The translations under genes were made by a program, and so were the position numbers. Shown in pieces: positions 5,375 through 42,082 of a DNA stretch of 43,381 bases. Origin of the DNA: a virus; IMG/VR virus record IMGVR_UViG_3300044732_001817, positions 1-43,381 of that record. One strand, written 5' to 3'. How positions within the stretch are numbered: the first letter of the stretch is position 1; every line of letters starts with the position of its first letter. Below the pieces are notes generated by a model. That model was given only the letters and a program-made list of their open reading frames with translations. It was not told the origin of the DNA and made no database searches.

Positions 5375-5432
5375 GTTGTTTTAATTTTTATATACAAAAA
5401 ATTAAAAAAGTTTTCTGAAAGTTATTAACATT
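5375..5432 (-). promoter_or_regulatory. Short version of the repeated intergenic promoter cassette
   Basis: The minus strand reads GTTAATAAC (palindrome, 5418-5434 with flanks) right after the stop of the 5433-5774 gene, then an A/T-rich stretch with TTTTTTGTATATAAAAATT about 20-45 bases upstream of the next ATG. The palindrome is the same as in the four longer cassettes, but the spacer to the core is shorter. Promoter activity is inferred from the repetition and position. Confidence 0.5.
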
Positions 5433-6633: not shown

Positions 6634-6634
6634 A

Positions 6635-7738: not shown

Positions 7739-7740
7739 AT

Positions 7741-8583
7741 TTAGCATTCTTTAGTTTTTAATCTACTTACAATATCTTGTATTCTTGCCCATATATCAAC
7801 ACCTATCGGAATTGACATGAGTGAAATTAAGAATTGGTTGATATATGCATACATGGATATTGATTGTCCTTGAGTTAGTCCTACATTTTTATGAGTAAAG
7901 ACTATTAAAGCCAATACCAAGAATATGGTTTTTGTTGAATTTAAAGTTGCCCAATTCTTACCTTGAAGTGTTGATCCGAATATAACAATTCTTCTTCGAC
8001 GTTCAAAAAAAGTTTTTTCTTTAGACGTATCTCCTTCGGTTAGTATATCAATTTTTTGTTCATAGTGAGAATTTGCTAATCTAGTACTTTGAGAAATCTT
8101 ACGATAGAATTTATACACAATCATACATATGAAGGGTATACAAGCCAAAACTACAAAGCCAGTTGGAATATGTTCAATAAATATAAAGAAAAGTGAACCA
8201 ATAATTGTCATTATTGACATAATATAGTAAGGAACGTAGTCTTCAAAAAATGCAACTAACCAATTAGACATTTCGGTTCTAGCAATTCTGGAAGATGCAT
8301 TAGAAGATTTATCATTTTCTAAATACTCAAAAACAATGTCATTGTAAATTCTAGTATAAACTTTGGTATCGTAAACCAGTCGTTTGTACATAAAAACGTT
8401 TGCTAGCAATTCTGTTCCTAAAAGAAACCAAATCCAAAAGTATTTCCCTGCTAACAAATCATCTATTGTTTTACCTAAAAGAAATGGCTCTATTAAGAAT
8501 AGCAATTGATAGCCTACCATATAAAAATAGATAATCGACAATTTGCATTTGTTGGCTTTAAGAATATCGTAAATATATTTCAT
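7741..8583 (-). CDS. ABC-exporter membrane domain without an ATPase domain
   Basis: 280 residues from ATG 8583, one base after the thymidylate synthase stop; the longer reading to 8640 lies inside that gene. It has about six hydrophobic segments (YFYMVGYQLLFLIEPFLLGK, IWFLLGTELLANVF, YYIMSIMTIIGSLFFIFI, FVVLACIPFICMIVY, IFLVLALIVF and a final one near residue 260) and the long helical linkers of type I ABC exporters (ITEGDTSKEKTFFERRRR resembles the intracellular loop). The protein ends where the nucleotide-binding domain should begin, with no Walker A or signature motif. Such exporters move lipids, peptides or glycans. Confidence 0.7.
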   Translation of the reverse strand: MKYIYDILKANKCKLSIIYFYMVGYQLLFLIEPFLLGKTIDDLLAGKYFWIWFLLGTELLANVFMYKRLVYDTKVYTRIYNDIVFEYLENDKSSNASSRIARTEMSNWLVAFFEDYVPYYIMSIMTIIGSLFFIFIEHIPTGFVVLACIPFICMIVYKFYRKISQSTRLANSHYEQKIDILTEGDTSKEKTFFERRRRIVIFGSTLQGKNWATLNSTKTIFLVLALIVFTHKNVGLTQGQSISMYAYINQFLISLMSIPIGVDIWARIQDIVSRLKTKEC

Positions 8584-8584
8584 A

Positions 8585-9712
8585 CTAGTTGCTAAGAGGT
8601 GCTTTAATAGTTGAATGTGATTGATAGTTTTCAATTTCAAAATCAGTATTATCTAAATGAGTCACTAATGAAACATCTTCCGATAATGATTTATAAAAGG
8701 CTTCAGTCTTCATATGTTTTAGTTTTGGTAATTCGTAAGGTTCTCTACCAATTTGTTTATCAACTTGTTCAAAGTGATCGTTATAAATATGAACATCTCC
8801 AAGTTGTCCTATAAGCTGATCAGGAACCATATTCACTGCTTTAGCAATGATTTCTAATAACAGGCCGTAAGATGCAATGTTGAATGGTAAACCTAAGAAT
8901 GTATCTACTGAACGTTGATTCCACATTAAAGAGATTGCTCGTTTAGGAACATTTAATTTATCTAAATTTTCATTATCAATATTATCTTCTGGGAAAACCG
9001 TATTACCATTTTTACCATACCAATAAAGATTTCTTTCCCTTAAACTCAACTCTCTTGTATAAACTTGAAATCCATAATGACAAGGTGGAAGTGTCATTTG
9101 GTCTAATTCACCTGGATTCCATGCACTAACCATTAATCGTCTACTATCAGGATTTGTTTTAAGGTCGTTGATTAGGTTTGCGATTTGGTCTATATAGGTT
9201 TCAGTATATTCTCCATTGCTGTATCTATATCCTCCAGGTATCTTTCGATTAGGATCTAACTCATCATTTATGGATACGGTCCAATGTCTCCATTGCTTAC
9301 CGTATATAGGTCCTAGATCTCCATACCACTTATTGAATTCATCATCGGTCATAATCTTCTCTTCGAATTCTTTTTGAGTAAGACGTTTTGGGTATGGTGC
9401 ACTAAATGGTGGATGTTCTCGGTCAAAATCTTTATCGTATACTCGATAAGCATCACCAGTCCATATATGACAGTTGTGTTCTAAAAGGTAACGAAGGTCA
9501 GTCCGTCCTTGTAGAAACCAAAGCATTTCGGTTACAATTCCTCTAAAGTACATTTTCTTTGTGGTTAGTAGAGGAAAACCTTCTGCCATGTTATGACGAA
9601 TTGTATATCCAAAAATAGAACGAGTTCCAGTACCCGTCCTATCTTCTTTACTAACACCAAATTCTTTAATAGTCTTTAGGAGATCTATGTATTGTTTGTC
9701 TAATGTATTCAT
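8585..9712 (-). CDS. thyA: Thymidylate synthase (ThyA type)
   Basis: 375 residues against 264 in E. coli. It methylates dUMP to dTMP using methylene-tetrahydrofolate. The dUMP-binding DRTGTGT is near residue 24, the catalytic Cys is in PPCHYGFQ (about residue 211), and RSVDTFLGLPFNIASYG is near 267. Extra length comes from an insertion near residues 88-130 (a common eukaryote-like insertion site) and another of about 40 residues just after the catalytic Cys region. It overlaps the vWA start by one base and its stop precedes the ABC gene by one base. Confidence 0.96.
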   Translation of the reverse strand: MNTLDKQYIDLLKTIKEFGVSKEDRTGTGTRSIFGYTIRHNMAEGFPLLTTKKMYFRGIVTEMLWFLQGRTDLRYLLEHNCHIWTGDAYRVYDKDFDREHPPFSAPYPKRLTQKEFEEKIMTDDEFNKWYGDLGPIYGKQWRHWTVSINDELDPNRKIPGGYRYSNGEYTETYIDQIANLINDLKTNPDSRRLMVSAWNPGELDQMTLPPCHYGFQVYTRELSLRERNLYWYGKNGNTVFPEDNIDNENLDKLNVPKRAISLMWNQRSVDTFLGLPFNIASYGLLLEIIAKAVNMVPDQLIGQLGDVHIYNDHFEQVDKQIGREPYELPKLKHMKTEAFYKSLSEDVSLVTHLDNTDFEIENYQSHSTIKAPLSN

Positions 9713-10410
9713 TATTTGTTAACGTCTTTACGATCTTCGTCATTGAAATTTAAAGCATCTTGAACTGCAGAATAATCGGATTCACTAAATTTAGCAGAAC
9801 GGAACATTGCAACTTTACTCGACATATTCATGTATACACTATTCACTGAATTGGCATTTGCATTGTAATTAATACTATTTCCTGCATTAATACCCATTGC
9901 TCCTCCAGCTGCAATTGCATCTTGATTAGCACCTAGGAATAAGAAATTCCATCCTGAACTTTTCTTCTTTTCGATAAGATCAAAAACTCCTTTTTGATTG
10001 AACTCTCTACTTGCATTTTCATGACCATCAGTAATGATTACAAATACAACATCGTCATCAGTTTTTAACTCATTGATAGTCTTACCAACTGCATCGAATA
10101 AGGCAGTAGTTGCACGAGGAACGAAAGTCTCTCCATCAATAAGATCCGCAACTTCCGAAATAGGTTTTGATTTGTAATCAATTTGATATTGATTGTCAAA
10201 TTGAACTAGAGTCATGTAAGCTTCACCTTCAGCAGCTTTTTGTTCTTTAATAAACGAATTCAATCCATTTACCGTAGCTTCTGAAATAGAACCCATAGAA
10301 CCGCTTCGGTCTAGAACTACTACAATCTGAGTAGGTTTTGTTGAATCGTTAACGATTTCTGTAACGACTTTAGTGGTTGTAGTCGTTGTTGTAATTTTCT
10401 TTTTAGCCAT
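9712..10410 (-). CDS. von Willebrand factor A (vWA) domain protein
   Basis: 232 residues. After a Thr-rich N-terminus (residues 4-12 are nearly all Thr) comes a vWA domain. The metal-ion site is complete: DRSGSMGS near residue 33 (DxSxS), the Thr in TTALFDAV near 100 and the Asp in ITDGHEN near 127. These proteins bind other proteins through the metal. Similar stand-alone vWA proteins occur with TerY or in AAA-vWA modules, but no AAA partner is seen in the window. The last 50 residues are Asn/Ser-rich and low-complexity. Confidence 0.85.
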   Translation of the reverse strand: MAKKKITTTTTTTKVVTEIVNDSTKPTQIVVVLDRSGSMGSISEATVNGLNSFIKEQKAAEGEAYMTLVQFDNQYQIDYKSKPISEVADLIDGETFVPRATTALFDAVGKTINELKTDDDVVFVIITDGHENASREFNQKGVFDLIEKKKSSGWNFLFLGANQDAIAAGGAMGINAGNSINYNANANSVNSVYMNMSSKVAMFRSAKFSESDYSAVQDALNFNDEDRKDVNK

Positions 10411-10418
10411 TTTGTATT

Positions 10419-11345
10419 TTATTTTATTTTATGACGTGGTGATGCATGGAGTACTACAAATCCATTGTTCATTTCTAGTCCTTGACGGTTTGCAACATAT
10501 TCAAGAAGATTTTTCGTAGCTCTCCAATTTAATAGAGTCTCTGTTTTCTTCCATTCCGATTCCGTATGAAGACCTTCATTTTTTCTTAAAGGAACGAATT
10601 GAATTTGATCCATATCTCCATCTACTATGAATTTAGCTAGATCTATAATTTTGATAGGTTCACCTCTACCTAAATCGAAGTTATGTCCTTTCCATTGACC
10701 TTCAGATATTTTAATCAATCCATCACATATATCATCAACATGAGTAAAATCTCTGGATTGTTGACCATCTCCTACAACCGTAAGTTTTTCGTTGTTGAGG
10801 TATTGTCTTAAGAATTTTTCAGTAACCGTTGCAAATTCACCATTTCGAGGTTCTCTAGGACCATATACATTGTAAAAGGTAGCCATTCCTATATTCATTC
10901 CATAGATTTCAGCATACATTCTACAAGCATCTTCTCCAACAACCTTGGAGAAAGTATAAGGAGTAATTAAGTGAGATCCATGATTTTTAGATGATGTAGT
11001 TGCATATACAAATGATTTGCAACCGGACTGTCTAGCAAAATCAAGAACTTCTACAGTTCCCATTGCATTTGACCAGAACCAATGTGCAGGAGCATCAAAT
11101 GAAGGTTGAATCCTAGCTTCTGCGGCTAAATGGAAAATAGTATCGAATTTTTTAGAACCCATAAGTTCTCTTATTTCTTGAATATCTCCATATACATATT
11201 CAACATTTTCATTTATGTATGATGATGAAGAGGAAATAGATGACATATTATCGATGACTATAACTTCGTTGCCTTGATCTACTAACTTATCAACTAAATT
11301 AGAACCGACGAATCCAAGTCCTCCGGTGACTAATACTTTTTTCAT
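10419..11345 (-). CDS. NAD-dependent nucleotide-sugar epimerase/dehydratase
   Basis: 308 residues, extended SDR family. The N-terminal GGLGFVGSNL is the NAD-binding GxxGxxG, with DIQEIRE and FHLAAEARIQPSFD in the usual positions. The catalytic motif is YTFSK (Tyr-x3-Lys) near residue 145, with the Ser/Thr before it in YATTSSK. A characteristic YNVYGPREPRNGEF follows. It acts on UDP- or GDP-sugars (epimerase, dehydratase or reductase cannot be told apart by eye). Overlaps the preceding gene by four bases. Confidence 0.9.
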   Translation of the reverse strand: MKKVLVTGGLGFVGSNLVDKLVDQGNEVIVIDNMSSISSSSSYINENVEYVYGDIQEIRELMGSKKFDTIFHLAAEARIQPSFDAPAHWFWSNAMGTVEVLDFARQSGCKSFVYATTSSKNHGSHLITPYTFSKVVGEDACRMYAEIYGMNIGMATFYNVYGPREPRNGEFATVTEKFLRQYLNNEKLTVVGDGQQSRDFTHVDDICDGLIKISEGQWKGHNFDLGRGEPIKIIDLAKFIVDGDMDQIQFVPLRKNEGLHTESEWKKTETLLNWRATKNLLEYVANRQGLEMNNGFVVLHASPRHKIK

Positions 11346-11593
11346 TTTTTAACAATTTTAGATTCTAATAAATTTAGTAGTGATTGTACTTCAGAAAAGG
11401 TATGAAATCTTATTGAAGGATCCGTATTGAAGATCTCAACAAACCATTGATTGCCTTTTTCTTCTGATTTTGTGTTTGTGATTAATGATAACCCATCTAC
11501 TACGTCAAGAGCATAGTAGTAATCATCGTCCCCTTCAAATTCGTTAATCATGCATTTTTCGAATCGTAGAAGATCTATTTCTCTTTCAGTCAT
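11342..11593 (-). CDS. Small acidic hypothetical protein
   Basis: 83 residues, acidic (EFEGDDDYYYALD), no membrane segment or known motif. It follows a strong terminator (11611-11640), so it probably begins a transcript that continues into the epimerase, which it overlaps by four bases. Confidence 0.6.
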   Translation of the reverse strand: MTEREIDLLRFEKCMINEFEGDDDYYYALDVVDGLSLITNTKSEEKGNQWFVEIFNTDPSIRFHTFSEVQSLLNLLESKIVKK

Positions 11594-11610
11594 TGTTTAT
11601 TTTTTATATG

Positions 11611-11640
11611 AAAAAAGCCAGGGATTTGATTCCCTGGCTT
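11611..11640 (-). terminator. Intrinsic terminator
   Basis: Minus-strand stem AAGCCAGGGA / TCCCTGGCTT (10 bp, perfect) with a six-base loop followed by TTTTTTC. It lies about 23 bases after the stop of the 11664-11954 gene. Confidence 0.9.
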
Positions 11641-11663
11641 ATAAAATTGTTAATAGAAATTGC

Positions 11664-11954
11664 TTATTTGCTTAGTGCATCAATTTCTTTATCGATTTCT
11701 GATTGTCGATTAACGTCGAGAATTTTACGATCAGTTGATTGTATCATTCGTTTTTCTGACTTAAGACCTTCAATTTGTAGTTCCTTTTTTGTTACCGTAA
11801 TAGCTTCTAGCGAATCTATTTTATTTGAAAGTGTATCGAGTCTTTTGTTAACTGTCTTTGTTGGATTTCCACAAGTATTGAAGAAAGTAACAATCAACAA
11901 AAATAAGGCTAATTTGTTAAAATGTTTTTCTACGAATTGTTCAAATTTATTCAT
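11664..11954 (-). CDS. Small membrane-anchored coiled-coil protein
   Basis: 96 residues from the ATG at 11954, which overlaps the previous stop by eight bases; a longer reading to 12032 would pass through that gene. A short N-terminal helix (MNKFEQFVEKHF) precedes one hydrophobic segment (LALFLLIVTFF) and then a charged coiled coil. A Cys follows the hydrophobic part (NTCGN), which could be a weak lipobox. Its size and shape would fit an accessory lysis or envelope protein, but nothing is diagnostic. Confidence 0.6.
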   Translation of the reverse strand: MNKFEQFVEKHFNKLALFLLIVTFFNTCGNPTKTVNKRLDTLSNKIDSLEAITVTKKELQIEGLKSEKRMIQSTDRKILDVNRQSEIDKEIDALSK

Positions 11955-12177
11955 TTTTCTTCTTTTTTGTTTTACCTTTTGGTGTGTATTGAGGAGTTTT
12001 TGCGTTGTAGTAATCATCAATATAACAATCACATACTTTCTCAGATTCTCCGCATTTTGGACATGTCATAGCTACTGAAGGATCAATTGGCGGCAAATCA
12101 GGTTTAACTTCCTCGATTTTATGAGCGTCGTTTTTCTTCTTTTCGCTAATGTACTGTATAAATTTCTTAAAAGGCAT
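11947..12177 (-). CDS. Small protein with zinc-ribbon-like Cys cluster
   Basis: 76 residues, basic. Near residues 40-52 it has CPKCGESEKVCDC, a CxxC plus CxC pattern that could bind a zinc ion. The remainder is Lys/Pro-rich, with a basic C-terminus (TKKKKNE). No family is assigned; nucleic-acid binding is a guess. A GGATAAATAA sequence that includes the upstream stop lies 14 bases before the start. Confidence 0.6.
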   Translation of the reverse strand: MPFKKFIQYISEKKKNDAHKIEEVKPDLPPIDPSVAMTCPKCGESEKVCDCYIDDYYNAKTPQYTPKGKTKKKKNE

Positions 12178-12195
12178 TTTAGTCTTTTAAGTTAT

Positions 12196-12732
12196 TTATC
12201 CTTGGAACGATGGATTTTGCTTTTGTAAACCTTCAACTAATTTCTCTACTGAGATTCCTTGTTCGGTAGCAACCAATTCTAAAGAAAGATCTTTAAGGTT
12301 TTGACGATCAGTATTAATTTCTGTCATTGAAATTGCAAATTGATCGCAAATTTGGCGGAAGAATCGAGCACTATCTACTCCAGTAGATACATGATTTTTC
12401 AAGAAGTGAAAAAGAGCCTCGATAATCTCAACTTTAACTTTACCATCAAGATTTCCTTTCTTGTTAACTTGAGATTTCAATGTATCATAAGTTTCAGAAA
12501 TTGCATATGATTCGTAACCTTTCCATTGGAAGTTAGGATATACTGATTCGAATAAATGAGTAGTTTGTTCTGCGTTTAATAACACAGCATACTCTTTAGA
12601 GTTCAATTGATTTTGTAACAAATCGAATTTTTCTGTCAATTCAGCAACTTTCTTTTTGTCGATTTTCGGTGCAGTTTGAGGTGCATTCGAGTTTTCTGAA
12701 GTTGGTACTTCGTTAGCTTTGATAACTTTCAT
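12196..12732 (-). CDS. Hypothetical soluble protein
   Basis: 178 residues. The first 30 are low-complexity (Asn/Ser/Pro/Ala), followed by a mainly helical body (KKKVAELTEKFDLLQNQL, EIIEALFHFLKNHVS). No motif or membrane segment recognised. Confidence 0.65.
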   Translation of the reverse strand: MKVIKANEVPTSENSNAPQTAPKIDKKKVAELTEKFDLLQNQLNSKEYAVLLNAEQTTHLFESVYPNFQWKGYESYAISETYDTLKSQVNKKGNLDGKVKVEIIEALFHFLKNHVSTGVDSARFFRQICDQFAISMTEINTDRQNLKDLSLELVATEQGISVEKLVEGLQKQNPSFQG

Positions 12733-12780
12733 AATTTACTTTTTATTTGTTTTTAAAGATTTTTAATTTATATGTTAGAT

Positions 12781-13317
12781 TTAGTTTGATGTTTCAAAAA
12801 TTTTTGCAATCAATATATCGTTTTTTCCTAGATCCGTATCAATCATTTCAAATTCATAATTCTCGTTGATTTCTTTAATCATTTTTTTGATAGAATCTAA
12901 AGGTAATATCCATTCAGTACCAGCCAATCTAATATCGTCAATCATGATTACATGGTTTTTTATCTTGTGAGATTTTATCCAATTTAGTTCTTCTTCTAAC
13001 GGACAGTATTTATCGCCTTTTGCAGTATTTCCTCCACTATAATGACCGTCCAACCAAAAGATAATCTTTTCGTTGATGTTTTTTATTACGGATCCTAATA
13101 TATCCGATGAACTTCCTAAGTGAATATGAACATTAGGATTGTTTTCGAATCGAGTTTTAACTAGGGAATGATAAAAATCAGACAATTCTATTGAATGAAC
13201 TTCTTTAAAATTACAAAGTGATGCACTATATGTAGTATCTCCTTGATATGATCCGGTTTCTACAAAGACTTGTGAATCTCCGGCATGAGTTTTGATAAAA
13301 TCGGTTGTTATTTTCAT
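12781..13317 (-). CDS. Class I SAM-dependent methyltransferase-like protein
   Basis: 178 residues with a Rossmann-type start: VFVETGSYQGDTT resembles motif I of SAM-binding enzymes, HSIELSDF is the acidic residue after beta-2, and IFWLDGHYSGG and HVIMIDDIRLAG follow. This is the pattern of short sugar or metabolite methyltransferases in polysaccharide clusters. Ends in a cluster with a fucosyltransferase-like gene and an FkbM enzyme; overlaps the former by four bases. Confidence 0.75.
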   Translation of the reverse strand: MKITTDFIKTHAGDSQVFVETGSYQGDTTYSASLCNFKEVHSIELSDFYHSLVKTRFENNPNVHIHLGSSSDILGSVIKNINEKIIFWLDGHYSGGNTAKGDKYCPLEEELNWIKSHKIKNHVIMIDDIRLAGTEWILPLDSIKKMIKEINENYEFEMIDTDLGKNDILIAKIFETSN

Positions 13318-14054
13318 TTAGATAGTTTTTTCCATTTTTTTCTTGCTGTATTCCAATTAAGATCTGCCGGAAACCAAACATCTGGACAAATAACATTTTC
13401 TGAATCAGAAAACCAAGAACCCCACCATCCAAATGAGCTGTTAGATATTACAAAGTTCTTGCATCCATACATATGTTGAAATTGCTCCCTTTCAGATCCT
13501 TGTATAAATTTCATATTTGGATAATCAAATGTTGACTTACACCATTCAATATCATCAGATGTAAAGTATATTGTATCGAAATCAAATTCCGAAATTGCTT
13601 TTTTGTACCAATCAATCGTACAATACTCATGTGCAGAGTTGTTTATGTAATCAGTACGTCTTACTTGAACTATAAGATCTCGTTCTCCAAGTTTTGCATG
13701 GTCTAATGCAAACTCTTCTCTTAATTCATCTATTACGTTCGAGAAGTAATTTTCATTTTGCCAATATCCTTGTACGACATAATTGCCATCGGGTAGATTA
13801 TCATATGCAGATTCGCAACCGTCAACATAAGGATGAGGTTCTTTAATATACATATTCCAATCAACATTCAAACCTTCGCTACAAGATATTCTAAACATTT
13901 TACCTAACATATAATGTCTAGGAACCGAAGCTCTATTCAATTCATTAATAGACACATGTAATTTTGCATTATATCTTTTTGCAAGAGATTTACCGAATGC
14001 ATATTGAAACATTTGATTTCCAAGGCCACCTTCAAGAACAATCTTAATCTGCAT
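13314..14054 (-). CDS. Family 11 glycosyltransferase (alpha-1,2-fucosyltransferase-like)
   Basis: 246 residues. The GT11 N-terminal signature EGGLGNQMFQYAFGKSLAKRY is complete, and the GDP-binding motif appears as VQVRRTDY near residue 125 (family HxRRxDY). The C-terminal ISNSSFGWWGSWFS is also typical. These enzymes transfer fucose (or a related GDP-6-deoxyhexose) to galactose in surface polysaccharides. The host would need to supply the GDP-sugar, as no GDP-fucose synthase is seen. Overlaps the FkbM gene by 11 bases. Confidence 0.92.
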   Translation of the reverse strand: MQIKIVLEGGLGNQMFQYAFGKSLAKRYNAKLHVSINELNRASVPRHYMLGKMFRISCSEGLNVDWNMYIKEPHPYVDGCESAYDNLPDGNYVVQGYWQNENYFSNVIDELREEFALDHAKLGERDLIVQVRRTDYINNSAHEYCTIDWYKKAISEFDFDTIYFTSDDIEWCKSTFDYPNMKFIQGSEREQFQHMYGCKNFVISNSSFGWWGSWFSDSENVICPDVWFPADLNWNTARKKWKKLSK

Positions 14055-14688
14055 AACTTTTATTTTTTAGAAGCACATCATCAGCATAAACATAAACGAT
14101 TTCCCAATTGGAACCAAGAATTTCTTGTATTTGATTCAAATTAAGTTGACCTTCGTACATTTCTTGATTGTTATATTCGGTGTAAAGATATTTAGTTCTC
14201 TTAAGAGTTTCCATAGATCCTTGAAATACTAAATCTTCTGCTCCTTGAACATCCATCCAAATAAAGTCAATTACTCTGTGTTCTATTGGTGAATAATCAT
14301 CTAATCTAATAGAATCAACTTCTATTGTTTCTTCGAATTTTATCCATTTATGAAAGTCTAGATGTACTTTAGGCTTCTTAAGTGAAGATGAAGCGGACCA
14401 ATCATTGCCTGTAAGTAGTGGATCTCCTGACCAATGACTACAATCACCGGCAGAAAGATAGAATTGTAGTTTTCCATTTTCATTAGATATTGCAACTTCT
14501 TCTATTTTGCATATTTTGTCTATTCCTCTATCTTTAAGTACTTTAAGATTTCTTGGATCCGGTTCAAAAGCGATAATTTCACAATTAGGTAGAAGTTCTC
14601 TAAATTTTTGAGTTTCTGTACCAAAATGTGCTCCTATTTCTAGAAGTAAAGATGGTTTAATTTGTTGTATGAATTCTAGTATATTCAT
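14044..14688 (-). CDS. FkbM-family methyltransferase
   Basis: 214 residues from ATG 14688, which overlaps the preceding TGA by four bases (ATGA); a longer reading to 14721 is less likely. Motif I is LLEIGAHFGTET, followed by IIAFEPDPRNLKVL and, later, IDFIWMDVQGAE, all typical of the FkbM family, which methylates hydroxyl groups of sugars or polyketides. Sits in the glycosyltransferase operon. Confidence 0.88.
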   Translation of the reverse strand: MNILEFIQQIKPSLLLEIGAHFGTETQKFRELLPNCEIIAFEPDPRNLKVLKDRGIDKICKIEEVAISNENGKLQFYLSAGDCSHWSGDPLLTGNDWSASSSLKKPKVHLDFHKWIKFEETIEVDSIRLDDYSPIEHRVIDFIWMDVQGAEDLVFQGSMETLKRTKYLYTEYNNQEMYEGQLNLNQIQEILGSNWEIVYVYADDVLLKNKSYAD

Positions 14689-15248
14689 TTTGTAAATACC
14701 ATTATTGTGTTTTTGAACCAAGGTGCAGTTGCTGCAGATCTCAATCTTTTAGAAGAATCCTCATCATATTTGAATCCTCGTTTCTGCATTTCGAAAATTA
14801 CATATTCGTTATCTTGACAGTTTACATGTCCATCTCCACCTTGCCCAACCACTGCCCAACTTAAAAGGACTTTAGATTTCGTATGTTTACAAATGTTATC
14901 TAGAAAGATTTGTTCAAATTCTTTTGGTATATGTTCACCAACTTCTAGACTCATTGAACAATCTGCAACTTCTCCTAAATCGAAGGTTTTAGAAAAATCT
15001 AGAACTGATCCAATTCCATTAGTAAGTTTTTCTGTGTTAGGGTTTCCGTCGTATGCTTTAACTTCAATTCCGTTAGATATGAAAGATTTTGCATAATCAC
15101 CCATTCCACAACCAAAGTCAAAGACTTTATTTAGGTCATTATTTCTTAAATAGTTAATGATACTCATACATAAAGGACGATCGTGGACATGTCCACTAGA
15201 ATCTATGGATTCCCAGAATCCTCTTTCGTTAATACTAAAATTTGTCAT
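14685..15248 (-). CDS. Class I SAM-dependent methyltransferase
   Basis: 187 residues. Motif I VFDFGCGMGDYAKSF near residue 40 and the post-II acidic residue in VKAYDGNP are clear; the middle has SMSLEVGEHIP, typical of the UbiE/Methyltransf_11 group. Acceptor unknown; the neighbours suggest a sugar. Coupled by four-base overlaps to the genes on both sides. Confidence 0.85.
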   Translation of the reverse strand: MTNFSINERGFWESIDSSGHVHDRPLCMSIINYLRNNDLNKVFDFGCGMGDYAKSFISNGIEVKAYDGNPNTEKLTNGIGSVLDFSKTFDLGEVADCSMSLEVGEHIPKEFEQIFLDNICKHTKSKVLLSWAVVGQGGDGHVNCQDNEYVIFEMQKRGFKYDEDSSKRLRSAATAPWFKNTIMVFTK

Positions 15249-15940
15249 AATGTTTTTTGTAGATTTGTTAAAAATTCATGATTTCGAGGATCCATATTCT
15301 TGGATAAACTCGTTGGGTTTAATCTTAATAGAAGTAGATTTTGTGATATATTTCTCAACTGCTTTCCGTTTCTTAACATTCGAATCCATAACTCGTAATC
15401 TTCGGCAAGTCCTTTAAGAGAAGTATCGTAACCTCCAATACTCATAACAGATTCCTTTCTAAACATAACCGTTGGATGGTTAAGGAACCAATGAGATCCT
15501 CTTGCAATATCCTTTGTGATTATTTCCGGATGTTGAGTTTCTCCAGAAATTGCCCATTCAGTTCCTGTCCAAAAAAGATATTGAAGGTTAGTACCCACCA
15601 AGTCAACTTCAGGATTTTCTTGAAGATATTTATATTGAGTAGTTAACCTATCAGGAAATGAATAATCATCAGAATCCATTCTAGCAATAATATCATATTT
15701 TGCATTTTCTATTCCGATATTAAGAGCTCCAGATATTCCAACATTTTTTTCTAATCTAATAACTTCTACACCTTCTTCTTTATCAAGAACATCTAGTAAT
15801 TTAATAGTTGTCGGATTTGTAGATGCATCATCTACTAAAATAATTTCAATATCTTTTAGTGTTTGAGATTGCATAGAATTTACTGCAATCTCTAACCAAT
15901 TATGATCGGTGTTATGAACCGGAATTACTACTGATACCAT
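15245..15940 (-). CDS. Family 2 glycosyltransferase
   Basis: 231 residues from the ATG at 15940, four bases after the previous stop; an upstream ATG at 16009 lies within the preceding gene. The start MVSVVIPVHNTDH is the classical GT2 opening, with ILVDDASTN at the nucleotide-binding position and the metal-binding ARMDSDDYS near residue 90. The late part (GLAEDYELWIRML) is the usual ED-type motif. It builds a glycan chain; sugar unknown. Confidence 0.93.
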   Translation of the reverse strand: MVSVVIPVHNTDHNWLEIAVNSMQSQTLKDIEIILVDDASTNPTTIKLLDVLDKEEGVEVIRLEKNVGISGALNIGIENAKYDIIARMDSDDYSFPDRLTTQYKYLQENPEVDLVGTNLQYLFWTGTEWAISGETQHPEIITKDIARGSHWFLNHPTVMFRKESVMSIGGYDTSLKGLAEDYELWIRMLRNGKQLRNISQNLLLLRLNPTSLSKNMDPRNHEFLTNLQKTL

Positions 15941-15944
15941 GTGT

Positions 15945-16574
15945 TTAAATGTTTTCGTATCCAAAAGTTGAACCCCATTTCTGATCTGCATAGGATTTTC
16001 CTGGTCCATTGTAAGTCCATCCAGTGTAATGTCTAGGAATAAAAACGAAGGCAGGATAGATTGATATTGGATATTTGAATTTCTTAATTACGTTAGTAAA
16101 GAAAAGAGGACCTACCGTCTCCCAAGACATTCGATTTGTATTTTTGAAGGTAAGATCAGGAGTATTAAAAATCTCATTAGTGCAATGACTCATTAACTGA
16201 CAGCCTTTAACGGCACCCATATAACCACATGCAACTAGATCTCCACGAAGTTCTTCATTTTCAAAACATGAAAAACTGTCATGATTAAGAAAATGCTCAT
16301 CTAAAGGATTTACGCAAATACAATCAGCATCTAGGAAAATTCCACCCATGTCATAGAGTATTTGATATCTCATTATATCGCATTTACCATTCCAACTGTC
16401 GTGTTCGTCGATATGATGTTGATTTCTAAATCCTTTAGGATATTTCTCTTTAATTAAATCTTCATTCCATAAAATATGTTCCCAATCAGGATGCGCATCT
16501 ATCCAAGTCTGAATCATTTTTTGTGGTGGAGGTTTAGGTCCAATCCACATTTGGTGTATAATCTTTGGTATCAT
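15945..16574 (-). CDS. Family 32-like glycosyltransferase
   Basis: 209 residues. The N-terminal PKIIHQMWIGPKPPP and the DxD-bearing ILYDMGGIFLDADCICV (near residue 80) are the hallmarks of the GT32/OCH1-type, capsular-polysaccharide glycosyltransferases. In this family the first Asp of the DxD coordinates the metal with a nucleotide-sugar. Followed after four bases by the GT2 gene. Confidence 0.9.
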   Translation of the reverse strand: MIPKIIHQMWIGPKPPPQKMIQTWIDAHPDWEHILWNEDLIKEKYPKGFRNQHHIDEHDSWNGKCDIMRYQILYDMGGIFLDADCICVNPLDEHFLNHDSFSCFENEELRGDLVACGYMGAVKGCQLMSHCTNEIFNTPDLTFKNTNRMSWETVGPLFFTNVIKKFKYPISIYPAFVFIPRHYTGWTYNGPGKSYADQKWGSTFGYENI

Positions 16575-16586
16575 ACTTATTATATG

Positions 16587-17315
16587 TTAGTTTTGAGGGT
16601 GTAATTCATGATATTGCAAAACGCATTTATGAAATTCATTAAACCAATTTTTGATTTCATCTTTAGTTAAAACAAATGTTTGAACCTCACCGGTTTCACA
16701 GCTTATCCAAATTTCGCATTGTTCAGGAAACACTCCGTATCGCTCATACATTGCAACTGAGTATGCAGAAATTTGTTTAAAGTAACCTTCAATCCATTCA
16801 CGTTTCTTGGGTTTTTTTGAGGTCTTAAAGTCGATGATTTTAGGAACCGAAGATTTTGAACGTATAGCTAAATCTAATCTACCAGCATAACCTCCACCTT
16901 TGAGTGACCAAACGGGAACTTCCTGAAATAGAATTTCTCCAATATCATCATAGAAATTAGAGTTGTTATGAAACTGTAAGAATAGATTTTTACCACATTC
17001 AAGTTCCTCTTTAGTAAGAGTATTGCATTCCGCCATAGCTCGTTGAAATGCAATTTGTAGAGGTTTTTCTAACTTTTCAATGAAATGAGCGTTGAGATAA
17101 TGCTCATGTAATGAATGCATAAACGTTCCTCTATTTGCAGAGAATTTTGATACTCTGGCTGCTTCTGCTTCACCTACACGCTTTTGCCATTCAATAAGTC
17201 CTGATTTGTCTGAAGTTTCGGATACGATTGTAGTGACAGAAGGAAGAGATAGTCCAGAACGTTCATCCACTACATAGTAACGACCGGTTCCGTTTTTACC
17301 AACTCTTGTTTTCAA
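16587..17315 (-). CDS. PD-(D/E)XK nuclease, probable TTG start
   Basis: 242 residues from a TTG at 17315 that overlaps the previous TGA by four bases; the first ATG (17408) would overlap the upstream gene by 97 bases and add about 30 residues that look like out-of-frame sequence. The RecB-type core has an early Glu (LFQEVPVWS), GRLDLAI with the metal-binding Asp near residue 160, and IIDFKTSKK with the Asp-x-Lys. It is related to RecB/Cas4/exonuclease-type enzymes and would act on DNA ends in replication, recombination or host DNA breakdown. Neighbouring genes are sugar genes, so its placement is odd. Confidence 0.82.
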   Translation of the reverse strand: MKTRVGKNGTGRYYVVDERSGLSLPSVTTIVSETSDKSGLIEWQKRVGEAEAARVSKFSANRGTFMHSLHEHYLNAHFIEKLEKPLQIAFQRAMAECNTLTKEELECGKNLFLQFHNNSNFYDDIGEILFQEVPVWSLKGGGYAGRLDLAIRSKSSVPKIIDFKTSKKPKKREWIEGYFKQISAYSVAMYERYGVFPEQCEIWISCETGEVQTFVLTKDEIKNWFNEFHKCVLQYHELHPQN

Positions 17316-17794
17316 AATAATGAGGTTATAAAGCCAATTGCTGAAGTTCCAAAAACCTTGGCAATCATGGCATTGATGAATACTAATGATAAAGTAAAGA
17401 TTCCGCAATTAAATAGCCATCTTAAAAATTTCTTAAATGATATGGATTCCGTTGATGGACTTAAAACTACTAGATATGCTGGAGATCCTTCAATTGGAGT
17501 AACCTCTGGATATACCAAATCATTTAGTCGTAATTCCATTAACAAATCATCTAATTCTCTTAACTGTTCTAGCATCCACGGCCAAACCATCTGACGTTTT
17601 TCATAAGGATATAGCTCTTCTGGGATATTAATAACTGTGTAAATTCTTCCTATACGATCAGTTCTTAATTCGTACTTAAAGGACCTAAGTCCTTCAATTA
17701 CTTCTGCTTCTGATTGAGCTTTTCTTACTATTCGCCATTGACTATAATCATCTAATACTTGTGATGGCCAAGTCCATATGTTCCATATATGCAT
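17312..17794 (-). CDS. Hypothetical protein with C-terminal membrane anchor
   Basis: 160 residues from ATG 17794, four bases after the previous stop; a longer reading to 17938 would pass through the coiled-coil gene. The N-terminal part (MHIWNIWTWP) is Trp-rich, the middle soluble, and the last 50 residues have a hydrophobic hairpin (WLFNCGIFTLSLVFINAMIAK and IGFITSLF). The organisation fits a tail-anchored membrane protein. Function unknown. Confidence 0.6.
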   Translation of the reverse strand: MHIWNIWTWPSQVLDDYSQWRIVRKAQSEAEVIEGLRSFKYELRTDRIGRIYTVINIPEELYPYEKRQMVWPWMLEQLRELDDLLMELRLNDLVYPEVTPIEGSPAYLVVLSPSTESISFKKFLRWLFNCGIFTLSLVFINAMIAKVFGTSAIGFITSLF

Positions 17795-17798
17795 TTTA

Positions 17799-18098
17799 CT
17801 AGATTTCAAGGTCCGTAATATCTTCATCTCCGAGTGCTTTTTGGAAGATTCCTTCTTTTTGTTTAACAATTTTGCTTTGATCGATAATTGCCTTTTTAAG
17901 CTCTTCTCTTTCAGCTTTATTTTCTTTGCCTGTTCCAATGAATTTCTTTTGTAACTCTTGTAATTTCAATTGTGCATCATGATATTCTTCAGTAGCTTTC
18001 ATTAATTTTTTGGAGGCCATTGCAGTAGATTCTTCTAATTTCTTTTGAGTATGTGCAGAACTGAATTTTCTAAAAGTTGTTATTTTTTCGTTTTTCAT
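17799..18098 (-). CDS. Small coiled-coil hypothetical protein
   Basis: 99 residues, almost wholly charged helix (YHDAQLKLQELQKKF, EREELKKAIIDQSKIVKQKEG) with an acidic tail. No family recognised. It lies between RmlB and the membrane-anchored protein. Confidence 0.6.
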   Translation of the reverse strand: MKNEKITTFRKFSSAHTQKKLEESTAMASKKLMKATEEYHDAQLKLQELQKKFIGTGKENKAEREELKKAIIDQSKIVKQKEGIFQKALGDEDITDLEI

Positions 18099-18124
18099 TA
18101 TATGATCGGATTTTCTCTATATAT

Positions 18125-19123
18125 TCAATCTTGGTTCATATACCAAGATACCGTCTGTATAAGTCCTTGTTTGATCGTCATTTTAGGAGTCCATCCCAAT
18201 TCTCGTGTTATTTTTGTGTGGTCAATAGCATATCTAAAATCATGACCGGCTCGGTCTTTAACGAATGTAAGCAAATTCATAGAATCCGATTCAACTCCGG
18301 TTTTTGCAGTTTGTATTTCATCGTAAATACGAATTAACATACCAACAACATCTAGATTAGATAATTCACAATCTCCTCCAACGCAGTAGGTTTCTCCAAA
18401 TTTACCATTTTTGAGGATATGAATAATTGCATCTGCATGATCTTCAACGTATAACCAATCTCTAACGTTCATTCCGTTTCCATAAACAGGGATCGATTCC
18501 TTTCTTTTAAGTTTATCAATAACAACTGGAATTAGCTTTTCGTTATATTGATTAGGTCCATAATTGTTACTGCAATTTGATAAAAGAACATTTAAACCAT
18601 ATGTATGAGCATATGCTCTAACAAAATGATCAGATGCTGCCTTACTGGCGGAGTAAGGAGATTTTGGATCGTATGGAGTTCTCTCATTAAATTTCGGATC
18701 TTCCATTTCAAGAGAACCAAAAACCTCATCAGTTGATACATGATAGAAGATAAAATCTGGATTCAATTTCTTATATTCAAGAGACAAATTAAGAAGGTTT
18801 ACGGTTCCCATAACATTAGTCTCAACGAATTCCAAAGGACTTTCAATTGATCTATCTACATGAGATTCTGCGGCTAAATGAATAATAGCATCTATTTGAG
18901 GGTAATGTTCAAGTAATTTAGAAATGGTTTCGGCATTCCTAATATCCATTCGGATAAAATTCGACCAAGTGCCGGCAACATTATCCATGTTACCGGCGTA
19001 AGTCAAACAATCAATTATGAAAACATTACAATCTGGCATTATGCGATTAATGGCTTTAACCACATGAGAGCCAATAAACCCGGCTCCACCAGTTACAATT
19101 ACATTTTTAAGCTTCCTGTTCAT
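18125..19123 (-). CDS. rmlB: dTDP-glucose 4,6-dehydratase (RmlB)
   Basis: 332 residues, close to RmlB size (about 350). It converts dTDP-glucose to dTDP-4-keto-6-deoxyglucose with NAD+. The Rossmann GGAGFIGSHVV is at residues 12-22, HLAAESHVDRSIE near 80, STDEVFGSLE with the catalytic Thr/Asp/Glu near 127, and YSASKAASDH with the Tyr-x3-Lys near 152. Its product is the branch point for rhamnose and many amino or deoxy sugars. The start overlaps the sigma factor stop by 17 bases, so the sigma gene and this operon are linked. Confidence 0.96.
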   Translation of the reverse strand: MNRKLKNVIVTGGAGFIGSHVVKAINRIMPDCNVFIIDCLTYAGNMDNVAGTWSNFIRMDIRNAETISKLLEHYPQIDAIIHLAAESHVDRSIESPLEFVETNVMGTVNLLNLSLEYKKLNPDFIFYHVSTDEVFGSLEMEDPKFNERTPYDPKSPYSASKAASDHFVRAYAHTYGLNVLLSNCSNNYGPNQYNEKLIPVVIDKLKRKESIPVYGNGMNVRDWLYVEDHADAIIHILKNGKFGETYCVGGDCELSNLDVVGMLIRIYDEIQTAKTGVESDSMNLLTFVKDRAGHDFRYAIDHTKITRELGWTPKMTIKQGLIQTVSWYMNQD

Positions 19124-19715
19124 ACATTTCTTTTATGATACGTTTTCCTCGCGCAACTCGATTTTTTACGGTATGCAAAGGAATGTTTAATTTTTTCGAT
19201 ATTTCATCGTATTGCAAATCATTAAAGAATTTTTCTTCGATTACTGATTTGTATTCTTCAGGAAGTGAATTAACGATGTTTCGCATTTTTGTTATTTCTG
19301 CTTGAGCTTCATCGTTTTCTTCCTTAGCAACCAAATGGTCTGCGTGATTTTCGATTGAATCGTATTCGATTTTAGATACCCAATTTTTGTTTTCGGAATT
19401 TTCGAAATAAGACATTGGTGTAGTTTTAGCAGCTTTTCTGTATCGAATAGCCATGCAAGCATGTGTATAAGCAATTCGATAGATCCATGTTGAGATGTGC
19501 CATTTTGGATCGTATTTATCAATTTTATCGTAAACCACGGACATTACTTGAGAAACGATGTGATCAGATTCCTCGGATTTTTGTAAGATGCCATTTACGT
19601 AATTGAATAATCCTGGACGGATTCGATAATAAAGTTCAGTGAATGCTTTTTCTGAACGAGTTTCCTTGAATTTAAGGCCAAGGTCCTTAAGAGAATCTGC
19701 TTTTTGTTTTGCCAT
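19107..19715 (-). CDS. ECF-type RNA polymerase sigma factor
   Basis: 202 residues, with two of the sigma-70 regions and nothing else. Region 2 (about residues 35-95) includes DPKWHISTWIYRIAYTHACMAIRYRK, matching the -10-binding part of ECF sigmas. Region 4 (about 150-198) has LPEEYKSVIEEKFFNDLQYDEISKKLN followed by the helix-turn-helix recognition segment PLHTVKNRVARGKRIIKEM. No anti-sigma partner is seen. It would redirect host RNA polymerase to phage promoters, and its own gene lies right after one copy of the repeated intergenic cassette. It may be a functional counterpart of T4 gp55, but no sliding-clamp-binding tail is obvious. Confidence 0.92.
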   Translation of the reverse strand: MAKQKADSLKDLGLKFKETRSEKAFTELYYRIRPGLFNYVNGILQKSEESDHIVSQVMSVVYDKIDKYDPKWHISTWIYRIAYTHACMAIRYRKAAKTTPMSYFENSENKNWVSKIEYDSIENHADHLVAKEENDEAQAEITKMRNIVNSLPEEYKSVIEEKFFNDLQYDEISKKLNIPLHTVKNRVARGKRIIKEMYEQEA

Positions 19716-19799
19716 AATATGATTGTTTAATTATTATGATATAAAAATAATAAAAGTTTTGGTAAAAGTAAAATTTTTGGATGGAAAGTTATTAACAAA
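19716..19799 (-). promoter_or_regulatory. Promoter cassette A upstream of the sigma gene
   Basis: On the minus strand, TTGTTAATAACTTT (19785-19798) lies immediately after a stop codon, followed by a spacer containing TTACC and then TTTTATTATTTTTATATC (19738-19756). TTACC is about 17 bases from TATATC, a possible -35/-10 pair. The same arrangement occurs at 21037-21119 and 22780-22862. No hairpin with a U-tract is present here. Confidence 0.6.
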
Positions 19800-21036: not shown

Positions 21037-21119
21037 ATTATGTTTATTAAATTTATAGTATAAAAATAATAAAAAAGATTGGTAAAGTAAAATTTTTGTT
21101 CAAAAAGTTATTAACAATT
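21037..21119 (-). promoter_or_regulatory. Promoter cassette B
   Basis: Minus strand: TTGTTAATAACTTT (within 21104-21120) directly after the lipoprotein stop, a 30-base spacer that contains CAAAAATTTTACTTTACCA, and TATTATTTTTATACTATAAATTTAATA (21046-21077) about 25 bases upstream of the next ATG. TTACC sits 18 bases from TATACT. The spacer segment AAAAATTTTACTTT is shared with cassette A. Confidence 0.65.
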
Positions 21120-22765: not shown

Positions 22766-22779
22766 GATTTGTATTGTGT

Positions 22780-22862
22780 ATTAAATTTATAGTATAAAAA
22801 TAATAAAAAAAGGGGTAAGTTGTATCAACTCACCCCAAAAAGTTATTAACAATTTAATACAA
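22780..22862 (-). promoter_or_regulatory. Promoter cassette C with built-in terminator
   Basis: The minus strand has GTTAATAAC (22839-22855 with flanks) after the phosphoesterase stop, then a perfect 11-bp hairpin and T-tract (22805-22836), and TATTATTTTTATACTATAAATTTAATA (22780-22811). The second half of the terminator hairpin supplies the TTACC that stands 17 bases from TATACT, so the terminator and the promoter overlap. Confidence 0.65.
22805..22836 (-). terminator. Intrinsic terminator in cassette C
   Basis: Minus strand GGGGTGAGTTG / CAACTTACCCC (11 bp with one G-U) with an ATA loop followed by seven T. It ends the transcript of the phosphoesterase and PhoH genes. Confidence 0.88.
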
Positions 22863-23363
22863 TCAAGATTCTTTATCGGACTTTGTAATGTCTTTAATAA
22901 ACTCGAAATCTATTGGTGACCAATTCCAATTTTTTATGTTTGCACAAAAACGGTTAGGAATCTGATCTAATTTGGTTCCTCCATGTATATGAATAGAACC
23001 TTCATCTTTATTGGCCCAATTCTGTAAAGCCCAATGAGAGAAAACCGCATTAATTTTAGGGATTTCGGCAATTGGTGGTAGTAAAACATGTTTTCCACCT
23101 TTGATCAGGGATACTTCAGATAAATGCTTATCATAAGTTCCACCAACAAAGAAGATCTTTCCATTCAAATGAATGATTGCAGATTCTGAGGAAATTGGAT
23201 CCCAACCAAAGTTTCCTAAATGGTATACAATATCAGTAGGCTTAACTTTGGAATTCCAATTATCTATGATTTGATCTTCCATATCTTCTACATTTTCAAA
23301 TCCTCCATCAACCGCGGCTAAATTCCTACCGAAAAAAGTGTCGCTTGTTACAAATATATTCAT
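22863..23363 (-). CDS. Calcineurin-like metallophosphoesterase, degenerate active site
   Basis: 166 residues, with the overall order of phage calcineurin-like phosphoesterases: SDTFFGRN (residues 7-14), IDNWNSKV, YHLGNFGW (48-54), LNGKIFFVGGTYDKH (66-80), FSHW (108-111) and HIHGG (125-129). In active enzymes these read SDxHFGHxN, GDF, GNHD and HGH. Here the first His is Phe10, the LGDF Asp is Asn51, GNHD is GTYD and the final His is Gly129. Only Asp8, Asp78, His110 and His127 remain. The fold is therefore probably kept while metal catalysis is likely lost or altered. Located next to PhoH. Confidence 0.75.
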   Translation of the reverse strand: MNIFVTSDTFFGRNLAAVDGGFENVEDMEDQIIDNWNSKVKPTDIVYHLGNFGWDPISSESAIIHLNGKIFFVGGTYDKHLSEVSLIKGGKHVLLPPIAEIPKINAVFSHWALQNWANKDEGSIHIHGGTKLDQIPNRFCANIKNWNWSPIDFEFIKDITKSDKES

Positions 23364-23376
23364 ATTTATTATATGC

Positions 23377-30711: not shown

Positions 30712-30847
30712 GATTTTTCATCTTTTTTACTATATATCTGGATTATCTGATTATTTTATTAAAAGAGTATAAAAATATGTTAATCAAAATAGTTGCCATT
30801 TAGGGATACTAATTTTTCCTAAAGTATTACCTTATTAAAAGAACAAT
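30712..30847 (-). promoter_or_regulatory. Promoter region upstream of the tail-assembly genes
   Basis: Minus strand contains CATATTTTTATACTC about 60 bases before the ATG; the TATTTTTATACT part is identical to the core in cassettes B-D. Upstream is an inverted repeat TTTAGG-x13-CCTAAA, a possible operator. There is no GTTAATAAC here. Confidence 0.5.
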
Positions 30848-31778: not shown

Positions 31779-31801
31779 TTAGGACTAGCTTATTTTGATA
31801 T

Positions 31802-32419
31802 TTATCTTACTTTTCTTGCAGGAACACCAACATAAGTTCCTGGTTCATTTATATCTTCTATGACTACTGCACCAGCACCAACAACAACATCATTACAAAT
31901 TTTGATATTTGGTAATATAGTTGCACGAGTACCTATTCTACAAGATCCACCAATTTCAGCACCTCCGAGGATTTCAGCTCCTGGCATGATTTCACAGAAA
32001 TAACCAATTTTAGCATCATGATGTATTGAGGCAGATGTATTAATTAAACATCCAGCACCTATAACAGCTCCTGGTTCTATAATTACATTAGACAAAATAA
32101 GATTTCCTGGTAGGATTTCGTTTCTAATATCTTCAAACACGTTTGCATTTTCTGATATAACCGTCATTGGAGTTCCTTCTATTTTAATTAATTCAACAAA
32201 GAAAAATTCTCTCCATTTTGGGTCTCCTACGCATACCGCAAATGAGAATGGTTCATTTATTTCTTCTAATGAGTTTATAACTCTATGTCCATAAAAACTT
32301 TCAGGAGCAGTTTCCGTATTATCAAAGAATACTAGGTCATCTAGTGTAGATCGGTTTTTATTTTTAAGATCTACTAACGCTTGTTTAGCAAGACCTCCAG
32401 TTCCAATAATTAATTGCAT
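31802..32419 (-). CDS. PglD/NeuD-like sugar acyltransferase
   Basis: 205 residues. The N-terminal half is a Rossmann-like sugar-binding domain (MQLIIGTGGLAKQALVDL), and the C-terminal half is a left-handed beta helix of hexapeptide repeats (GAVIGAGCLINTSASI, GTRATILPNIKICNDVVVGAGAVV) ending in GVPARKV. PglD and NeuD family members N- or O-acetylate amino or acid sugars with acetyl-CoA; the catalytic His is probably the one in SIHHDAKIG. With the aminotransferase (36774-37799) and RmlB it could complete a 4-acetamido-sugar pathway. Confidence 0.92.
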   Translation of the reverse strand: MQLIIGTGGLAKQALVDLKNKNRSTLDDLVFFDNTETAPESFYGHRVINSLEEINEPFSFAVCVGDPKWREFFFVELIKIEGTPMTVISENANVFEDIRNEILPGNLILSNVIIEPGAVIGAGCLINTSASIHHDAKIGYFCEIMPGAEILGGAEIGGSCRIGTRATILPNIKICNDVVVGAGAVVIEDINEPGTYVGVPARKVR

Positions 32420-35947: not shown

Positions 35948-35967
35948 AGTTTTTTATTTATGTGAGT

Positions 35968-36048
35968 ATTAAATTTATAGTATAAAAATAATAAAAAAAG
36001 CCGAGATTAAAAAATCTCAGCTCATAAAGTTATTAACAATTTTACTTT
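35968..36048 (-). promoter_or_regulatory. Promoter cassette D with built-in terminator
   Basis: Minus strand: GTTAATAAC (36026-36042 with flanks) shortly after the methyltransferase stop, a terminator hairpin (35993-36022), then TTTTTATTATTTTTATACTATAAATTTAATA (35968-36000). The core matches cassettes B and C over 30 bases. The TTACC element is not present in this copy. Confidence 0.65.
35993..36022 (-). terminator. Intrinsic terminator in cassette D
   Basis: Minus-strand stem AGCTGAGATT / AATCTCGGCT (10 bp with one G-U, TTTT loop) followed by seven T. Ends the sugar aminotransferase-methyltransferase transcript. Confidence 0.88.
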
Positions 36049-37799: not shown

Positions 37800-37959
37800 A
37801 TGTAGTATCTTTATTTTGTAGTGGAAGTGAATTACCAGACTTACCAGAATTACCTGAAAATCTATTTACTTTCAACTGTTTCAACCAGTAATGGTTATAT
37901 GATAAATTGAGGTAGTCAGTTTCACAGTCCATTTTTGGATCATTTTTATATTTATCCAT
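37777..37959 (-). CDS. Small hypothetical protein
   Basis: 60 residues from the ATG at 37959; a longer reading to 37986 starts inside the terminator tail. The protein is polar and Asn/Ser/Gly-rich in the second half (FSGNSGKSGNS), with no motif. It overlaps the aminotransferase start by 23 bases, which supports coupling, but the gene itself is not certain. Confidence 0.45.
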   Translation of the reverse strand: MDKYKNDPKMDCETDYLNLSYNHYWLKQLKVNRFSGNSGKSGNSLPLQNKDTTFVYQLVK

Positions 37960-38744: not shown

Positions 38745-38754
38745 TTATTTATCT
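38745..38754 (-). promoter_or_regulatory. T4-late-promoter-like AGATAAATAA upstream of tail tube
   Basis: The minus strand reads AGATAAATAA 27 bases before the tail tube ATG, one base from the TATAAATA consensus of T4 late promoters. Unlike three similar sites, it is not part of a stop codon. In such A/T-rich DNA it could occur by chance, so confidence is low. Confidence 0.35.
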
Positions 38755-42031: not shown

Positions 42032-42082
42032 TTGTTATACTATTTTTTTAGGTATATATCTTCGTTCCGAAATTATTTTAGA

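Follow-up and report, generated by a model that had tools for sequence, protein, structure and literature searches.

A phage-encoded ECF-type sigma factor and its predicted middle-gene promoters in large T4-type phages of Bacteroidota-type bacteria

A virus record of 43,381 bases (GC 33.8%; the whole stretch is called the window below) encodes an ECF-type sigma factor. From motif and domain patterns we consider it fairly likely that this protein, together with the host core polymerase, reads middle genes through promoters of the form TGAAAC-N15-17-CATATAA(T/C), that its own gene is transcribed from a host-type early promoter, and that gp55 reads the late genes. Domains, motif classes, spacing, strand bias, gene classes and co-occurrence are visible in the sequence; from them we infer the pairing of classes and a temporal order that would run from host sigma (early) through the ECF-type sigma (middle) to gp55 (late). 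At phage entry, host holoenzyme would read the class E cassettes and the sigma would be made; the phage sigma would then bind the host RNA polymerase core and direct it to the class M promoters of replication, nucleotide and other middle-type genes, and the gp55 ortholog would take the core to the -35-less GATAWATA late promoters (class L) of virion genes. The sigma's link to the repeated cassettes of the window is probably different from the one proposed in the sequence-only reading, in that the gene would lie under a host-type promoter while the sigma reads another.

Nearly all predicted genes of the window lie on the minus strand. Pfam and PHROG-type searches identify T4-type genes (topoisomerase subunits, a baseplate-like protein and a terminase), and the tail sheath and tail tube genes were named via homologs in relatives; the virus is a large, T4-type phage of Bacteroidota-type bacteria. 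A run of sugar-nucleotide or glycosyltransferase-like genes occupies approximately 5776-19123; the nucleotide-sugar dehydratase at 18125 was assigned by Pfam and the other genes only from the look of their translations. This run perhaps serves decoration of the virion or of DNA. The coordinates of the features discussed are collected in Table 1.

Table 1. The sigma gene and the predicted promoter elements of the window.
Feature	Position	Strand	Remarks
ECF-type sigma factor gene, 202 aa, regions 2 and 4	19107..19715	-	recognition helix HTVKNRVARGKR; from Pfam, PHROG, structures and alignment
Cassette A, class E, host-type promoter before the sigma gene	19716..19799	-	box TGTTAATAACTTT 19785-19797; -7-like TATTTTTA 19742-19749
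Cassette B, class E, before ORF 20746 (kinase-like group)	21037..21119	-	box 21104-21116; -7-like 21061-21068
Cassette C, class E, before ORF 22496 (CCA-enzyme group)	22766..22862	-	box 22839-22851; -7-like 22795-22802; terminator hairpin 22805-22836 nested between them
Cassette D, class E, before ORF 35765 (topoisomerase group)	35948..36048	-	box 36026-36038; -7-like 35983-35990; terminator hairpin 35993-36023
Fifth TGTTAATAACTTT box, before ORF 5015	5375..5432	-	box 5418-5430; lacks a good -7 at the standard spacing
Class M promoter candidate (GAAAC-N16-CATATAA), before ORF 12196-12732	12768..12795	-	the phage sigma is predicted to read it
GAAAC-N17-CATATAA with a conserved non-coding stretch (CCATTACTGG...) after it	37895..37923	-	promoter or part of an RNA/DNA element
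Class C site CATATAAT	16579..16586	-	12 nt before start codon; -35 weak or absent
Class C site CATATAAT	23368..23375	-	12 nt before ORF 22863-23363; weak -35 GGAACC
Class L GATATATA, before tail sheath gene 38804-42031	42053..42060	-	
Class L GATAAATA, before tail tube gene 38163-38717	38746..38753	-	
Class L GATATATA, before ORF 30463-30711	30731..30738	-	"tail-assembly" cassette of the sequence-only reading
Class L GATAAATA, before ORF 30900-31778	31799..31806	-	

The description of the protein as a compact sigma with regions 2 and 4 only was borne out (Pfam Sigma70_r4_2, 3.6e-12; Sigma70_r2, 1.3e-5), and Pfam found no further sigma region in its 202 residues. Its PHROG match is 1740 (2.3e-21), and the solved structures nearest by sequence are ECF sigmas, led by B. 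subtilis SigW (5wuq, 1.6e-12) and including RpoE (7.7e-12). Region 4 matches SigW domain 4 on -35 DNA (6jhe) with an rmsd of 0.9 and 39% identity; the AF2 model is of modest confidence (pLDDT 70, pTM 0.39), which makes a full-length fold comparison weak, so the model was used for region 4 only and the argument is based on this region and on sequence. With regions 2 and 4 only, a length of about 200 residues and agreement in sequence and region-4 fold, the protein is of the ECF type (sigma-70 group IV). ECF sigmas commonly, if not universally, have a cognate anti-sigma encoded next door, and autoregulation is usual for them without being obligatory; Pfam detected no anti-sigma among the scanned ORFs neighbouring the sigma gene. 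The possibility that the protein is gp55 itself was rejected, as its best PHROG, shared with the sigmas of three relatives, is 1740 and not 234, which holds T4 gp55, and relatives carry a separate gp55-type gene. It had also been remarked that descriptions of phage-encoded ECF sigmas of such a size are uncommon; this is right in part, yet homologs occur in 45 phage records, some crAss-like ones being annotated as sigma-W. Group-2 jumbo phages all encode sigmas and gp33, according to the available part of a review (PMC7824862). A third sigma-like gene, present in one relative only (G004:165602-165814), has the strongest Pfam region-2 match among the records searched (5.4e-16).

Only two class M sites lie in the window, and the motif was characterised in relatives; the near-copy of the window (G001) was left out of the motif statistics, and G007 and G008 entered in part. 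Unsupervised 8-mer enrichment in non-coding DNA of seven relatives recovered CATATAAT 83 times against 6.6 expected, and CATATAA is preceded, at 15-17 bp, by a second box, TGAAAC (or TGAATC). When the search was made de novo in intergenic DNA, CATAT was the best partner of GAAAC, with 7 pairs at gap 16 and 6 at gap 17, each against 0.36 expected. Removal of five sites of a conserved non-coding family and 15 homologous duplicates left 106 non-redundant CATATAA sites, of which 7 have an exact TGAAAC at 15-17 (other offsets average 0.02 each) and 18 have one with at most one mismatch (0.66 each), so that most CATATAA sites have no clear -35. It should be noted that at least 88 of the 106 CATATAA sites of close relatives lack even a one-mismatch TGAAAC, which counts against the explanation that we prefer.

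The genes behind strict M sites are few (21 of 22 scanned, one falling out through piece borders or length); they include a clamp loader, a dUTPase and a translation initiation factor, and are mostly unnamed. Behind CATATAA sites without a good -35 (44 genes) are clamp loaders (3), dUTPases (2), thymidylate kinases (2), UDP-glucose dehydrogenases (2), DnaB (1), thymidylate synthase (1) and baseplate hub proteins (2). Ten genes scanned behind M sites in contig G023 include a dUTPase, a PRPP-synthetase type protein and two phosphoesterases, and ARAGORN placed tRNAs downstream of M sites at one of 17 loci. In a subgroup of relatives' sites, as in the class C sites of Table 1, CATATAAT lies 12-13 nt before the start codon, often abutting the stop codon of the gene upstream. 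An ordinary leader would not fit into so short a distance, and CATATAAT may serve another purpose at these sites, perhaps marking a leaderless start or acting as a translation-level element.

A conserved non-coding stretch, CATATAACC[A/C]TTAC.GG.TTTCAGGTAAAG..GAATACAGT, follows some M-type promoters (window 37850-37925, minus strand), with homologs in G002, G003 and G004, on both strands in the latter two. Rfam assigned it to no known RNA family in six sources. Several perfect M sites fall in this family, which could be an RNA or a DNA element. The M promoter GAAACTGGATAACTTTCCATCATATAA recurs at G009:114197, G006:55345 and G071:15753, and in G009 and G006 it is followed by more than 120 nt of similar sequence without ATG, possibly a phage small RNA.

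The same 8-mer enrichment in seven relatives yielded a second class, with GATAAATA found 38 times against 6.4 expected and GATATATA 43 times against 6.9, and neither of them in reverse. GATAWATA, which occurs 11 times on the gene strand of the window and never on the other, mostly stands 24-30 nt before starts and has no -35; it resembles the T4 late box, TATAAATA. The genes behind it (48 of 53 scanned, the other five lost to piece borders or length) include four head maturation proteases, four tail tubes, three sheaths, one portal and two endolysins. Orthologs of gp55 (phrog_234) are present in G003, G004, G006, G008 and G009 (E 1.5e-11 to 2.0e-12) and in LR756500, and are too short for region 4; none was found in the window, which is a fragment.

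These observations bear on an alternative in which CATATAA and GATAWATA are variants of a single late promoter read by gp55, and the ECF-type sigma acts elsewhere, on host genes or other sites. In its favour, both boxes are AT-rich, -10-like and often 24-30 nt from starts, and many CATATAA sites have no -35. We nevertheless regard it as unlikely: only CATATAA, and not GATAWATA, is accompanied by GAAAC at 15-17, the gene classes differ (head protease, tube, sheath, portal and endolysin for class L; clamp loader, dUTPase, DnaB and thymidylate enzymes for classes M and C), and T4 and pf16 contain no M motif at all.

The strongest evidence for the predicted target of the sigma comes from comparison across phages. 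LR756500.1, the top match in the phage collection, encodes a sigma that is 29.7% identical to that of the window and has the recognition helix in common. Its whole record contains 13 GAAAC-N15-17-CATATAA sites, all on the sigma strand, with none in the reversed control, and in the first 400 of its 462 kb, 23 of 33 non-coding CATATAA sites have AAAC at 15 or 16 (other offsets average 0.15). A profile search gave 36 new loci, 35 of which (all except L350) were searched for the motif. These sigma-bearing contigs hold 71 M matches, 65 of them on the sigma strand, against none for the reversed pattern, counts that are not all independent because G055 and LR756500 are evidently one phage. At least one exact match is present in 21 of the 35 contigs, and many of the remaining 14 are short fragments. 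In G023, 12 of 45 non-coding CATATAA sites have GAAAC at 16-17.

The M motif is in excess in phages with the helix TVKNR.xRG[K/R]. Among phages with other helices, LR745206, LR756502, LR756504 and Lak-B1 have 3, 2, 3 and 3 matches on both strands together, which is no clear excess over reversed controls of 1, 2, 0 and 0. No match is present in crAss cr50_1, T4, pf16 or LR756501. Eight contigs with E cassettes have no match to the sigma profile: six of them lack M sites, and the M sites of the other two (G060 and G071) are identical to those of sigma-bearing relatives (G023 and G006/G009, respectively). No M site was found in three near-identical 271-kb contigs with E cassettes in which the sigma is represented by a distant homolog only. 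The M motif co-occurs with the sigma subfamily, or its recognition helix, across phages. An AAC-containing -35 element (TGAAAC or GGAAC) is typical of ECF sigma promoters. SigW itself reads TGAAAC-N16,17-CGTA, as given in the accessible text of PMC2375139.

Host ECF sigmas, rather than the phage protein, might also be proposed as readers of the M promoters, as Bacteroidota hosts have several (seven in F. psychrophilum, in the part of PMC9723704 available). We consider the chance of this slim, since the M motif tracks the recognition helix of the phage sigma and the F. psychrophilum ECF motif described there has a CGT -10 box that is absent here.

The gene of the sigma itself is probably read from a host-type early promoter, cassette A. 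The repetition of cassettes before the sigma, kinase-like, CCA-enzyme and topoisomerase gene groups had been recognised from the sequence, and it is real. The four share a core, TTATTATTTTTATA[C/T], at 19739-19753, 21058-21072, 22792-22806 and 35980-35994, and a TGTTAATAACTTT box. The core alone is not beyond chance (5 occurrences with up to two mismatches against 2.9 expected). The 13-mer box, a shared element that the earlier description had left unnamed, is beyond chance (5 on the gene strand, 0 on the other, 0 in the reversed control), and in each of the four cassettes it precedes the -7-like box by about 35 bp. Other parts of that description did not hold. The site before the tail-assembly group, taken for a partial cassette, has no TGTTAATAACTTT box and belongs to a different motif class (GATATATA, Table 1), and the TTACC reported about 17 bases before TATAyT in cassettes A-C is not conserved: a whole-window search for TTACC-N16-19-TATAYT found it before two genes only (the reversed pattern occurs once), and cassette A, reading TATATC, falls outside the pattern. 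As a promoter box TTACC was rejected; in cassette C it lies within the terminator stem GGGGTGAGTTG..CAACTTACCCC-T7, and it stands at the corresponding place in 1 of 51 homologous promoters of relatives.

The TGTTAATAACTTT box is found in nine of ten records searched, always on a single strand within each record, with one control match overall. Among 75 boxes with up to one mismatch in seven contigs, 68 have a -7 matching TATATTTG at six or more of eight positions; the window's TATTTTTA differs from TATATTTG by one base, at the last position. TATATTTG itself occurs 38 times in non-coding DNA of seven relatives, against 3.7 expected. The gap from box to -7 in the 68 is 34-36 in 52, 44-47 in 14 and other in 2, and terminator hairpins within the gap leave its length unchanged. 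Because the two modes lie one DNA turn apart, a protein probably reads the box in register with the polymerase.

The same layout is found in cells. A scan of one genome per species for box-N33-47-TATATTTG returned 104 stretches, and 71 of the 80 matches listed have Bacteroidota titles, although phage contigs may stand among those titled bacterial (a single 254-kb MAG contig carries three boxes inside 6 kb). Spacing among 105 cellular matches, a count that takes in orthologous sites, is 33 in 1, 34-37 in 72, 38-44 in 11 and 45-47 in 21. With the gap widened to 28-58 in 12 genomes, which were picked by the first scan and so provide no independent test, 18 matches were obtained against none in the controls, with total lengths of 46 (1), 54-57 (9), 61 (1) and 65-67 (7). 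In both phages and cellular Bacteroidota, TGTTAATAACTTT is thus placed approximately 35 or 45 bp from TATATTTG, a spacing quantised by about 10 bp. Sigma-A of F. psychrophilum recognises TAnnTTTG at -12 to -5 (PMC9723704, in the part available), and the -7 boxes of the cassettes are TAnnTTTG-like, as in Bacteroidota housekeeping promoters. This -7, together with an upstream box that cellular Bacteroidota place at the same spacing, makes a host-type promoter the best reading of the cassettes, and the suggestion that they are host-sigma promoters carried in multiple copies is supported.

Upstream regions of the sigma genes point the same way. Of 37 distinct regions, 31 have a host-type TATATT[T/A][G/A] (6.8% in random windows) and none has CATATAA; the cassette before the sigma gene would be a copy of a bacterial promoter. 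The 53 genes scanned behind class E promoters include two sigmas, two primases and a ligase, and are mostly small unnamed ORFs. Least probable of all is recognition of the repeated cassettes, cassette A among them, by the sigma: cassettes do precede three gene groups besides the sigma gene, and a fifth box lies elsewhere, but this regulon with self-activation is unsupported, because the M core is absent before all 37 sigma genes, half of 16 contigs picked for E cassettes have no match to the sigma profile, LR756500.1 has the sigma and no E-type cassette, the -7 box is the published host consensus (PMC9723704, available part), and the layout precedes housekeeping genes in cellular Bacteroidota (a gyrase-B type subunit, an AhpC-family protein and a permease).

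Taken jointly, these patterns would fit a T4-type Bacteroidota phage lineage that acquired an ECF sigma as a dedicated switch for middle genes, placed between host sigma and gp55, and whose early promoters copy a host element, TGTTAATAACTTT, at two positions one DNA turn apart, hence bound by a polymerase-touching protein (alpha-CTD or a host activator), with the terminator of the upstream gene folded into the spacer. To this combined scenario we give somewhat less than an even chance. The literature searched did not mention TGTTAATAACTTT as a host promoter element, and a search with its letters listed matches that look unrelated by title. Titles and opening lines of abstracts on phage sigmas, huge phages and Bacteroidetes promoters assign no promoter to an ECF-type sigma of T4-type phages. 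The analysis offers a concrete and testable code of early, middle and late promoters for large Bacteroidota-type phages known here almost only as uncultured contigs, gives a phage ECF sigma a predicted target and directs attention to an upstream element in promoters of Bacteroidota; the sigma and its promoter could also be used as an orthogonal expression part for Bacteroidota.

Several known systems can be compared. PeSLs are mobile promoter/stem-loop cassettes of T4-type phages, and the class E cassettes likewise repeat an early promoter and a terminator hairpin between small genes; here, however, a Bacteroidota-type promoter is involved, whose fixed 35-bp spacer encloses the hairpin. With B. 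subtilis SigW, the nearest solved structure by sequence, the predicted system has in common a TGAAAC -35 and a spacing of 16-17, and it differs in that its -10 is CATATAA and not CGTA, that a neighbouring anti-sigma was not found, and that the sigma would not activate its own gene. Sigmas of group-2 jumbo and crAss-like phages are homologs of the window sigma by sequence, but the M motif is without clear excess in Lak-B1 and absent from crAss cr50_1; the available part of the jumbo phage review assigns no promoters to the group-2 sigmas (PMC7824862). In SPO1, gp28 and gp34 regulate middle and late genes (PMC9429907, as far as its available text goes). The SPO1-type cascade (gp28 middle, gp33/gp34 late) resembles the one proposed here in its succession of host sigma early, a phage sigma middle and another late, a timing that we infer for the present phages; in contrast to SPO1, these are T4-type phages whose middle sigma is ECF-type with a TGAAAC -35 and whose predicted late sigma is a gp55 ortholog. 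The T4 programme uses host sigma70 for early, MotA/AsiA for middle and gp55 for late genes. Our phages are of T4 type and share with it a gp55 ortholog and, before virion genes, the late box GATAWATA, which is TATAAATA-like, while their middle class would, unlike that of T4, have its own phage sigma and a -35/-10 pair.
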